Shown piece by piece: positions 6,509 through 44,801 of a DNA stretch of 55,631 nucleotides. This DNA is from a filamentous cyanobacterium CCP3 (GTDB taxonomy: Bacteria; Cyanobacteriota; Cyanobacteriia; Phormidesmidales; Phormidesmidaceae), in assembly GCA_003022385.1 (NCBI GenBank), contig PYGV01000008.1, forward strand, positions 1 through 55,631, given 5' to 3'. Each line of letters begins with the position of its first letter. Within the stretch, counting starts at the first letter, position 1. Below the pieces are notes generated by a model. The model was given only the letters and a program-made list of their open reading frames with translations. It ran no database searches and was not told where the DNA came from. A program made the translations under genes and the position numbers.

Positions 6509-8395
6509 CTAGCTCCGCGATCGCCAGGGTAAGCCAGTCTTGGGGGGTGAGGCAGGGGAAGCCGCATCTGGGTCTGGGGGTTGATACTGGTAGCGCACCC
6601 CTAGATGCTTAGCCAGGGCCTTCAAAAGCTGTGTCGTGTCCACGGGCTTGCGGATAAAGTCATCGCACCCCGCCTGCAAAATACTGGCCCGCTCTGACTC
6701 AAAGGTGCTAGCGGTAAGCGCCACGATAATGGTGTCGCGGCCCTCGGGCTGCTGCTTAATCACCCGGGTCGCCTCACGGCCATCCATTTCCGGCATTCGC
6801 ATATCCATCCAGATCAGGTGGGGGCGGTGCCGTTGCCACTGATCGATCGCCTCCCGCCCGCTGGCGGCTTCGTAGAGTTCAAAGCCCAGGGGGCTCAGCA
6901 GCTGAACTAAAAACTGACGGTTTTCCCAGTGGTCATCGACCACCAGCAGGCGGTAGGTGGGTTGGCCTGGGGCCATACCGCTGACCACGCGCTGATCGGC
7001 GGTGGACAGGCCCAGCCCTGGGCCTTCTCGCAGGGGCACGATGCCAGTAAAGCAGGTGCCCACCCCAACGGTGCTCTCTACCGTCAGGCTACCCCCCATC
7101 AAAACCACCATCTGGTAGCTGATAGCCAATCCTAGACCAGTGCCCTCCTGGGACTGACGCCCAGTGGCGGTTTGCACAAAGGGATCAAAAAGCACCGCCA
7201 ATTCGTCATCGGTAATGCCGTCGCCAGTATCAAGCACCTTGAAGGTAATTTGGTAATTCTCTTTGCTCTGGGAAGCCGCTGCCCTCACCTGCAAGCTAAC
7301 GGAACCCTGCTGGGTGAATTTAATCGCGTTCCCCAGTAGGTTGATCAGCACCTGGCGCAGCTTACCCTCGTCACCGATTACCCAACTCGGCACCTCAGAG
7401 CTGCAGTCAAAGGTCAAGGTTAGGCCTTTGTGCTCGGCTCGCAGCCGCAGCATATCGATCAGCGCTCCCAGGGCGGCATGCAGATTGAAGGGGGCCTGGC
7501 TGAGGGTAAGACGGCCAGCTTCAATTTTGGCCATATCCAATACGTCGTTGATTAATCCCAGCAAGTGCTCACCGCTGCGATGAATAATATCCAGAGCGGA
7601 CTGCTGCTTATCAACTGAAGGGGAACCCTGGGACCCCTGGCTACGCTGCAGGTCGCGCCGCATCAGCTGGGTAAACCCCAGAATGGCATTCAGCGGGGTA
7701 CGCAGCTCATGGCTCATGTTGGCCAGGAAGGTACTTTTGGCCAGATTGGCGGCTTCGGCAGCCTCCTTGGCCTTTTGCAGCTCTAGCGTGCGAGCCTGTA
7801 CCCGCTGCTCCAGAGTTTCGTTGAGCAGCTGTAAATCGGTCTCAAACTGATGCCGGGCGATCGCGCCCCCGATACTGCCTGCGATCGCCAGCAGGGCAAA
7901 CCGGGCGGTATCGTCCCAGTGGCGCTCCTGGTGGCAATCATCAAAGCCAACAAAGCCCCAGAAGCAATCTCCGATAAAGATAGGAACCACCAGAATTGAC
8001 TGAATCGCCTGGGGCTCCAGCAGCGCTCGTTCGGAGGCAGGAAAGTCCTTAATCAAGCCGACGATGGGCTGCTGGCGGCTGAGTACCTCAAGCCAGCGGG
8101 GCAAAATATCCTGCAAAAGTAAGTTTTGGAGCTCAGGGTTATCAATTTCTGGGGTTACGCCCGTCGCCACCCACTCCCAGCGCTGGCTCACTGCAATCTG
8201 CCCAGTTTCGGGGTGCAAGTGTTTTTGAAAGATGTAGATCCGATCAACATCGGTGGCCGAGCCAAGCGCTTCTAGGGCCGACTGCATTGAGTCGCGAGGG
8301 TCACTAACCGTCAGCAACCGATTGGTGGCAACGGCAATTCCCTGAAGCAGGCGGTCACTGATAGATTCAGGCCGAGGTTGGGGATCAGCGGTCAT
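6509..8395 (-). CDS. GAF-domain hybrid sensor histidine kinase
   Basis: I choose ATG 8395 ([11 protein letters not shown]...) rather than TTG 8407; 628 aa. Domain order: N-terminal GAF sensor (~15-180, '[11 protein letters not shown]... [16 protein letters not shown]'), short coiled coil, HisKA with the phospho-acceptor in '[16 protein letters not shown]' (His ~229), HATPase with N box, 'DTGDGI' and 'GTGLGLAIS', then a C-terminal receiver with 'LLVVDDH' and the phospho-acceptor Asp in '[12 protein letters not shown]' (~530), ending 'DDFIRKPVD'. No membrane segment is visible, so it is a cytoplasmic phosphorelay kinase. The bound ligand is unknown. No separate response regulator lies next to it, so output must go through another partner. 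A typical cyanobacterial hybrid kinase. Confidence 0.92.
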
Positions 8396-43221: not shown

Positions 43222-43647
43222 CTAGCCACGATTCTTAATGGTCATCACCTGCACTATCTGCTGGGCCGTCGGGTTGGGAATTTCTAGAATGACGCAGAGA
43301 TCTTCTAAAAAAGACTGCTCCTGGGGTGTAACCGTGCGGTCAGAGAGCACCAGATCGGTGGCGATCGCAAAGGCGGTCTCCCGCAGGTCCGGAGGCAGCA
43401 CCCCCTTGGCCTGGTTGATCAGTATACCTGGCCCCTCTTCTTTTAAACGCGCGAGCAGCGTGTCGAACAGGCGGTGTAGGGCTTCGCTAGAATAACTGCT
43501 GAACAGCGCCATACGCGACAGCAGCATCGTCATATCCTGCCCCTCGCGCTCGGCCAGATAGCCATCGGCGGCGATCGCCACCAGCGCAATGCTGGCCAGC
43601 GCCTCGGCTGGACCCATGGCCGCCGAGCCTGTGGATAAATTGGTCAC
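43222..43647 (-). CDS. TerB-family protein
   Basis: GTG 43647, preceded by GGGAG at spacing 9; 141 aa, helical. TerB-like pattern 'ASIALVAIAADGYLAEREGQ', 'LSRMALFSSYSS', 'FAIATDLVLSDRTVTPQEQS', 'FLEDLCVILEI', with repeated acidic 'ADG/SDR' metal-binding-like positions. In other bacteria the fold is associated with tellurite resistance and phage-related stress, but cyanobacterial single-domain copies are uncharacterised. Confidence 0.82.
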   Translation of the reverse strand: MTNLSTGSAAMGPAEALASIALVAIAADGYLAEREGQDMTMLLSRMALFSSYSSEALHRLFDTLLARLKEEGPGILINQAKGVLPPDLRETAFAIATDLVLSDRTVTPQEQSFLEDLCVILEIPNPTAQQIVQVMTIKNRG

Positions 43648-43787
43648 GACGGTTTCTCCCTAACGTTGGCCTCGCCCTGTGCCACTTAATTCTTGCCCTA
43701 AAGCCGCCCCGGTGCAATCCACTCGTCAGGAGTCTTCACAGCTAGCAAACCCGGTGTGGCCGTGGCCTCCGTCAAATTGCTTAATTG

Positions 43788-43803
43788 TGTGATCAATCTC
43801 ACA
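43788..43803 (+). promoter_or_regulatory. CRP-type operator, perfect consensus
   Basis: TGTGATCAATCTCACA fits TGTGA-N6-TCACA exactly, as bound by CRP and by the cyanobacterial SYCRP1. Its centre (43795.5) is ~61.5 bases from a predicted start near 43857 (-10 GATACT at 43847-43852) or ~40.5 from one near 43836 (TAGGTT at 43824-43829); both are classical activator positions. Confidence 0.75.
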
Positions 43804-43856
43804 GTCGGGTGTGACAAATTGGCTAGGTTTTCAGGAACCTTCCAGTGATACTAAGG

Positions 43857-43936
43857 TTGACTCAACTTTAGCCGAGTCATCTACAGGGAACACACAACCA
43901 ACCGACATGCCCTTACCGGGTCTGTCGGTTTTTTTT
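43857..43936 (+). ncRNA. Small RNA candidate, about 80 nt
   Basis: From the predicted start near 43857 comes a hairpin TGACTC/GAGTCA (43858-43879, 10-base loop), then ~20 single-stranded A/C-rich bases (containing GGGAACACACAACC), then a strong terminator. No ORF is present. The architecture (5' hairpin, unpaired stretch, intrinsic terminator) is that of a trans-acting small RNA; it could instead be an attenuated leader of the membrane-protein gene at 44013. Confidence 0.6.
43900..43936 (+). terminator. Intrinsic terminator
   Basis: 8-bp stem AACCGACA / TGTCGGTT with inner CCC/GGG pairing, followed by an uninterrupted T-run (43929-43936). Confidence 0.88.
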
Positions 43937-44012
43937 GGGATAACGGCGATCGACTGGGGTAGCCTTAGCCTAGCCCTAGGGTTTGCACATCTATTCGGAG
44001 CCCTCTTTGGCC

Positions 44013-44801
44013 ATGGCCGGAGCCTCTTCCCCCCTCCCCGACGACCGCTCGCCCGACCGCCCGACCCTTCAGGCTGTCCGGTCCCCCTGGCTCACTCGCC
44101 TGATTTCGCCTCAGTCTAACCAGCTCACCCTGGTCGGGCACCTGGCCCTGGCGGGGTCACTGCTGCTGGGTAGCCTCAGCCTCAACGTCTGGATGTTTGC
44201 CTTTGCCAGCAGCCAGGAGGGTGACTGGCTTAACCTCAGTACCGTTGCCAAAACTCGGGCCGACAGCCAGGCACTGGTTACCAACGTACAGGCTACGGCG
44301 GCTGAGCGATCGCGTATGGTCGATCAGTTCATGTTGATTCAGGCGCGGGTTGAAACCCACGTCCAGGTCATGGGGCTATTTTACAAACTCAATTTCATTG
44401 CCCTGGGCACCATCGGCTGGGCGACAGGACTGGCTTCAATCAGCCTGTTCTTTATCAGCAAAGTGGGTTGGGAACAGGTCAACAACGCCTTGATCAACCT
44501 GTTCATTGTGTCCTCCGGGCTGGTCATTTTTCACAGTAACCTGATCCTGATCTTCAAGTTCCAGGACAATATTCAGCTCAACGGCCAGCTCTACACCGAA
44601 TACACCCAGCTTTACAATGCGGTGCTGAGCTACTGGGCTATTCAGCCCAGCACCCCCAACAGCCCTACCCCAGCCGATTTCATTGTGGCCACCGACCAGC
44701 GCTTAACCGAACTGGGTCAGATCGCCCTCGATTTCGATGTCAGCCGGGTTTCGCAGTGGAGTCAACCCCTGGAGGGAGCAGGCGCCGAACCGTCACCTTA
44801 G
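44013..44801 (+). CDS. Membrane protein with methyl-accepting-like periplasmic region
   Basis: I choose ATG 44013 (MAGASSPLPDD); 262 aa. A helix at ~45-68 ('LVGHLALAGSLLLGSLSLNVWMF'), an ~85-residue helical loop, then two helices (~125-145, 'LNFIALGTIGWATGLASISLF'; ~160-185) and a C-terminal helical tail. No recognisable enzyme. Downstream of the CRP-site/terminator locus, so it may be expressed by read-through. Ends with a 4-base overlap with the S10 peptidase gene (convergent). Confidence 0.6.
   Translation: MAGASSPLPDDRSPDRPTLQAVRSPWLTRLISPQSNQLTLVGHLALAGSLLLGSLSLNVWMFAFASSQEGDWLNLSTVAKTRADSQALVTNVQATAAERSRMVDQFMLIQARVETHVQVMGLFYKLNFIALGTIGWATGLASISLFFISKVGWEQVNNALINLFIVSSGLVIFHSNLILIFKFQDNIQLNGQLYTEYTQLYNAVLSYWAIQPSTPNSPTPADFIVATDQRLTELGQIALDFDVSRVSQWSQPLEGAGAEPSP

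Follow-up and report, generated by a model that had tools for sequence, protein, structure and literature searches.

What might be transcribed next to a perfect CRP operator that stands in the intergenic region between positions 43,788 and 43,936 of a 55,631-nt stretch of cyanobacterial DNA (hereafter the window)? A first-pass annotation had offered two answers, i.e., a CRP-dependent RNA of ~80 nt, or an attenuated leader of the membrane-protein gene that begins at position 44013. The analysis described here makes it probable that the locus is a free-standing, trans-acting small RNA (sRNA) gene of ~77 nt, whose transcription would be switched on by cAMP-bound CRP. The first of the two answers is thus strongly supported by comparative genomics, in that the predicted RNA, terminator, operator and −10 element are conserved together and co-occur with a CRP orthologue, whereas the second fails on gene order. 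The features of the locus are collected in Table 1.

Table 1. Predicted features of the sRNA locus, in window coordinates
Feature	Position	Strand	Remarks
CRP operator 1, TGTGATCAATCTCACA	43788..43803	+	Perfect palindromic consensus, centre −63.5 (site predicted from sequence)
CRP-like operator 2, TGTGACAAATTGGCTA	43810..43825	+	Degenerate (6/10 bases of the consensus); centred at −41.5, with exactly 22 bp between it and operator 1
−10 element GATACT	43847..43852	+	ATACT at −11 to −7 conserved
sRNA gene, ~77 nt (predicted)	43859..43935	+	Begins at G43859, the inferred +1, and ends within the U tract
5′ hairpin GACUC-AACUUUAGCC-GAGUC	43859..43878	+	Stem 43859–43863 with 43874–43878
Unpaired A/C-rich stretch	43879..43899	+	~21 nt, contains the core GGGAACACAC at 43886–43895
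Intrinsic terminator	43900..43936	+	Stem 43900–43907 with 43923–43930, U tract 43929–43936

Predicted promoter and transcript

The operator claimed by the first-pass annotation is present exactly as described and is the sole perfect TGTGAN6TCACA site of the window, where 0.05 are expected and one was present in 5 of 100 shuffles. Across the 5.78-Mb genome there are three such sites, this one included, and one site for the reversed control word. A chance origin of the operator is very unlikely because it is conserved together with the RNA across families. The conserved −10 element is GATACT. This element spans −12 to −7, and in each position of its ATACT the majority letter is found in 68–89% of 174 loci. 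Its position suggests a +1 at G43859, which is placed there because of both the −10 element and the edge of conservation, and thereby an operator 1 centred at −63.5. Judged by sequence, the locus has the operator consensus at an activating distance from a −10 element, as a promoter activated by cAMP-CRP would.

Operator 1 was found with at most two mismatches in 153 of 174 distinct loci aligned at +1, and its commonest centre is −63.5 (the mode, in 103 of 178 loci). The 178 loci are regex matches, reduced to 174 by removing two chance non-cyanobacterial loci (L063 and L117) and merging near-identical rows; the query that yielded loci L001–L030 contained the operator, that set being chosen with the core pattern, and loci L127–L162 entered only the counts of operator position, synteny, promoter alignment and unpaired probability. 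Because some of the 174 loci came from the operator-containing query, a recount was made with copies chosen on the RNA alone, i.e., all 106 covariance-model copies of the loci in two listings, none dropped, with operator centres counted from −67.5 to −45.5, the range also used for the 174 loci. The operator is present in 92 of these 106 copies, with every centre at −63.5 to −65.5, vs. 12 of 104 in an equal-width control window downstream of the terminator, into which the next tandem copy can intrude. A smaller recount gave 72 of 84 copies, and 92/106 is the preferred figure.

A second palindrome, TGAT-N4-ATC, lies exactly 22 bp downstream of operator 1 in the 153 loci. At this offset the mean number of consensus matches is 5.14 out of 10, vs. 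1.3–3.0 at 18 other offsets, and at least six matches are reached in 91 of the 153 loci. A simple sigma-70 scan found no −35/−10 pair here, and two sites two helical turns apart, the proximal one at −41.5, are the geometry of an activator-dependent promoter. Cyanobacterial CRP promoters are described with the same consensus and mostly with a −10 element about 22 bp downstream (PMC2633013). This published spacing fits operator 2, from which the gap to the −10 element is 21 bp.

The operator near −64 is absent in 14 of the 106 copies. Four of these, from the Thermosynechococcus family (L092, L110, L193 and L194), have a single good site centred at −43.5 that replaces the −63.5/−41.5 pair; the others have degenerate or missing sites, and L107 is entirely without one. 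Two loci, L036 (G039:C11) and L107, have an intact core and no upstream CRP operator, and are possibly rewired or silent duplicates.

Downstream of the promoter, the small hairpin, unpaired A/C-rich stretch and strong terminator of the first-pass annotation were all located. The RNA folds with a minimum free energy of −25.1 kcal/mol (z = −3.7; none of 200 shuffles equally stable), its single-stranded stretch reads AUCUACAGGGAACACACAACC, and two of the eight U of the terminator tract are paired in the predicted fold. The terminator is one of four terminator-like scan matches in the region, where 2.3 are expected.

That annotation had also seen no ORF here. The RNA has no start codon ahead of the terminator stem; a mechanical 102-aa GTG ORF (43811–44119) overlaps it. 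This ORF is what speaks for a short protein as the product of the stretch, an explanation that is scarcely credible: the first ATG of the RNA (43907–43909) falls inside the terminator stem, the lengths of relatives differ by single bases, and the ORF would cross both the conserved pairs and the terminator, whose length varies among relatives.

Conservation, distribution and genomic setting

Covariance models were built from 37 (R1) and 50 (R3) relatives, the structure of R3 being written by hand; R3 took the place of an intermediate model, R2, which was dropped when its automatic structure lost the 5′ hairpin. The window RNA scores 98.5 bits with R1 and 90.8 bits with R3 (over 43859–43935), by construction, as its sequence is in both models. 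For 49 distinct sequences, pairing is possible in 89.7% of the cells of the hand-written structure vs. 85.5% in shuffles, and 41 cells are changed on both sides vs. 16.6 (0 of 500 shuffles as high), a comparison in which shuffle controls overstate covariation among related sequences. The covariation score is 0.234, vs. 0.05–0.10 for slid controls. Nearly all of this covariation sits in the terminator, where 7 of the 10 pairs scored have both partners changed in some sequences. In the 5′ hairpin, 92.2% of the cells are paired and one of five pairs shows changes on both sides; the stem is otherwise nearly invariant, its end failing in 8–9 of the 49 sequences, mainly of the f32 type. In f32-type copies (L196–L202 and L208–L210) the first stem loses its outer pairs, and by eye the conserved GAGU can pair instead with ACUC in the old loop, giving a shorter alternative hairpin.

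The first loop drifts between families, whereas the core is constant: the covariance model did not demand GGGAACACAC, and yet 18 of 21 copies that it picked have this core letter for letter. Averaged over 149 distinct RNAs, the probability that a core base is unpaired is 0.46 for the first G, 0.61 for the second and 0.82–0.99 elsewhere; these RNAs were selected by a pattern holding most of the core, which L138, with its altered core, does not match, and they are those with a found U tract.

A DNA search with positions 43770–43940 matched the RNA part well beyond the genus. Among 80 loci listed in another search, carriers include Nodosilinea, Leptolyngbya, Thermosynechococcus, Stenomitos, Oculatella, Adonisia and Myxacorys, and seven loci from other phyla hold an 18-mer only. 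In covariance searches the sRNA was found in 121 of 242 sampled genomes of the class with R1 (E ≤ 0.001) and in 186 of 388 with R3 (E ≤ 0.01), one of these 186 (f2, E = 0.004) being regarded as chance. Eighteen families carry it (f1, f4, f7, f8, f10, f11, f14, f15, f17, f18, f20, f24, f25, f26, f28, f32, f38 and f43). In a sample of the phylum (146 genomes), 23 members of the class match at 61.9 bits or more and two non-members at 28 bits (E about 0.0015), which are taken as noise. Applied to the loci, R1 gave 84 intact cyanobacterial copies at 51.9–97.4 bits and one copy cut by a contig end at 32.6 bits; the remaining 16 matches (E ≤ 0.1), at 17.7–24.4 bits, comprise six of the seven loci from other phyla, plus ten secondary hits at places where a true copy is also present. 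The source genome has one copy, and others have tandem copies, e.g., five in G105 and four in G190. An origin as mobile-element or phage cargo was considered and rejected, since the viral contigs held no exact core match and no similar DNA was found in plasmids or phages.

Gene order bears on whether the hairpins and terminator act in cis, as a leader or attenuator that would govern read-through into the membrane-protein gene at 44013. In the window that gene lies on the same strand, about 75 bp past the terminator. However, of the 28 loci (among 178) that share the upstream gene of the window, the 44013 gene adjoins the sRNA in three, the window included, so that the linkage an attenuator calls for is not conserved. 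In five loci of other families (two Thermosynechococcus-type, f15, f32 and f38) the neighbours are different, and in three of them the downstream gene is convergent; in addition, tandem copies of the sRNA unit exist. A role as leader is thus very improbable. The neighbours change and the RNA stays, i.e., it is, on sequence evidence, a free-standing sRNA gene: a conserved RNA with its own promoter and intrinsic terminator, independent of its neighbours, as expected of an intergenic trans-acting sRNA.

Some neighbours are of note in themselves. The upstream, divergent gene at 43222–43647 (−) encodes a 141-aa protein, TerB-like by eye, and adjoins the sRNA in 28 of 178 loci. The membrane-protein gene (44013–44801, +), beside the sRNA in three loci only (L001, L003 and L007) of the 178, may have been gained recently or be patchily distributed at this locus. 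The f32 and f38 loci have a common neighbour whose translation we read as phycobiliprotein-like. On another cyanobacterial contig (L126), positions 7024–7309 (−), ~2.5 kb from the sRNA, give a strong Rfam match to 5_ureB_sRNA (RF02514, 129.7 bits).

Candidate activator and proposed mode of action

The source genome encodes a 234-aa CRP-family protein (L213) with the recognition helix RETVTR and a PRS motif at what we take to be the position of the cAMP-pocket residues of E. coli CRP. Against the model of E. coli-type CRP it scores 72.7, below the cut-off of 266, and its candidacy as CRP rests on these motifs and its likeness to the CRP group instead of on a curated family. An orthologue is found in 199 of 242 genomes (E ≤ 1e-40) and, with six weak matches set aside, in 116 of the 121 sRNA carriers. 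Forty-nine genomes are without one, of which five carry the sRNA, and four of these five assemblies are 62–87% complete; in 77 genomes CRP is present and the sRNA undetected. The co-occurrence has an odds ratio of 13 (Fisher p 1.6e-10, not corrected for phylogeny), and nucleotide cyclase domains were found in all six sRNA-bearing genomes tested. Comparison among genomes supports the predicted RNA, promoter and terminator as well as their association with CRP.

NtcA recognises sites of the form GTA-N8-TAC. The operator might serve this or another CRP/FNR-family factor instead of the cAMP receptor, given that 13 cNMP-binding-fold matches occur in the source genome, which also encodes an NtcA, separate from L213, that passes its NCBIfam cut-off, and that members of the CRP/FNR superfamily are described as recognising similar sites (PMC2633013). 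However, the half-sites here are TGTGA and TCACA, the recognition helix is RETVTR in the CRP orthologue vs. RVTVTR in NtcA, and it is the CRP orthologue with which the sRNA co-occurs, making NtcA or a relative a quite improbable activator.

With CRP as the probable activator, we infer transcription, control by cAMP and action in trans as follows. CRP dimers would occupy both operators, the strong one (−63.5) and the weaker one (−41.5), an arrangement read from the promoter architecture, as is the next step, in which bound CRP would bring RNA polymerase to a promoter that has a good −10 but lacks a recognisable −35. The polymerase would then make a short RNA ending at the intrinsic terminator, whose structure is supported by comparison, and UCAUCWACAGGGAACACAC would be presented unpaired between two hairpins. 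This stretch would most likely form short duplexes with several mRNAs near their start sites, altering translation or stability. In this way cAMP signalling would have a post-transcriptional arm in that part of the cyanobacterial tree which holds Nodosilinea, Leptolyngbya and Thermosynechococcus.

Complements of the core were sought as possible targets. An 11-mer complement of the core was matched 41 times across 18 genomes; the sRNA itself accounts for 23 of these hits, and the 18 non-self matches equal the 18 of a control word, showing no enrichment. A search for GTGTTCCCT-N3-30-ATG in nine genomes returned 68 rows, 10 of which are the sRNA itself; the 58 non-self rows, all examined, contain no gene that recurs from one of the nine genomes to another, and the sole protein match among them is between two paralogues within one genome. 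Without G032, the other eight genomes give 48 non-self matches vs. 27 for the reversed control, an excess that is not counted as target evidence because reversal turns ATG into GTA and shifts the expected frequency. In G032 there are 10 non-self matches vs. 63 for the control, which has 1–7 in each of the other eight, and this points to an unrelated repeat family there. At L277 (G216:C1:623179–623219), a hairpin GTGTTCCCT...AGGGAACAC, one arm of which has nine core bases, stands just upstream of a small ORF and is probably a dispersed repeat.

CsrA binds UACARGGA-like motifs, which the core resembles. A role as CsrA sponge was rejected, as CsrA (PF02599) was found in none of 18 sRNA-bearing genomes and in 3 of 14 control genomes. 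The wider alternative is that the RNA binds a protein, for titration or as a scaffold, through its constant single-stranded core and does not pair with mRNA. The constancy of the core beside a drifting first loop favours such binding, and so do the 11-nt complement, not enriched in 18 genomes, and the 9-nt complement before ATG, with no gene recurring among nine. However, besides the lack of CsrA in the 18 carriers, Yfr1 is also described with an ultraconserved unpaired 11-mer (PMC2190773), so that constancy is compatible with pairing. Protein binding is hence unlikely, though the main rival; short imperfect pairing with mRNA is the default for such RNAs.

A more far-reaching idea, rather unlikely in our estimate, is that the ultraconserved core docks to one constant partner, either an RNA-binding protein or a core RNA, instead of engaging in ordinary seed pairing, that tandem copies tune the dose, and that the RNA branch of cAMP signalling so formed is old in photosynthetic bacteria. 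If so, cyanobacteria would have their own equivalent of protein-titrating RNAs, in genomes that lack CsrA. For a pairing RNA as for a docking one, the constant core makes discovery of the target or partner directly testable.

Comparison with known systems

In the Rfam search that the first-pass annotation had suggested, Rfam 15 gave no match at gathering score in the window, where scores at E up to 10 lie far below gathering, and none over the RNA in nine divergent loci. The sRNA therefore escapes Rfam-based annotation. CyaR of enterobacteria is an sRNA with a cAMP-CRP-activated promoter and depends on Hfq. The sRNA promoter predicted here is analogous to that of CyaR; however, CyaR comes from a different phylum, and the present RNA has no Rfam match of any kind.

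A search of the open-access literature returned no description of this RNA; supplements, subscription papers and preprints lie outside such a search, so that a prior description is possible. The promoter shares its operator consensus and −10 geometry with the predicted cyanobacterial CRP regulons (PMC2633013). That survey scanned upstream of predicted gene transcription units, and its main text contains neither "small RNA" nor "non-coding". A 2009 RNA screen that included Thermosynechococcus elongatus describes elements specific to a single genome as beyond its reach (PMC2662882). This limit, together with the gene-upstream focus of the CRP survey, may explain why the sRNA was missed earlier. 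For cyanobacterial CRP regulons, high diversification and lineage specificity have been predicted (PMC2633013), and cAMP is described as a carbon-linked signal (PMC13104629). If the proposed control is true, a CRP-operated sRNA kept in 18 families would give the cAMP signal an output common to them, linking carbon-linked cAMP to post-transcriptional control.

The RNA is best described as a probably new family within a familiar type of sRNA; no record of Synechocystis, the source of NsiR4, PmgR1, IsaR1 and PsrR1, is among the 80 loci listed. NsiR4 of Synechocystis is an NtcA-activated sRNA that pairs around the ribosome-binding sites of its targets (PMC9196836); compared by description only, it is likewise a cyanobacterial sRNA under a CRP-family factor and differs in having NtcA as the activator. 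Ncr0700/PmgR1 of Synechocystis, also compared by description only, is an abundant, dark-induced sRNA conserved in two strains, with a reported overlap of 195 nt, and "CRP" has no occurrence in the text of PMC5386190 that describes it. In architecture the likeness is to Yfr1, which is reported in nearly all cyanobacteria as an RNA of 54–69 nt with an unpaired stretch of 16–20 nt, an ultraconserved core and a GC-rich 3′ terminator (PMC2190773): both are short cyanobacterial RNAs with a 5′ stem-loop, an unpaired conserved stretch and a 3′ terminator. Membership in Yfr1 was rejected, as its defining undecanucleotide, ACUCCUCACAC, is absent from the RNA and from the 50-sequence alignment. In contrast to Yfr1, the present RNA has the core GGGAACACAC, is ~77 nt long, turns up in roughly one of every two class genomes sampled and is preceded by predicted CRP operators.
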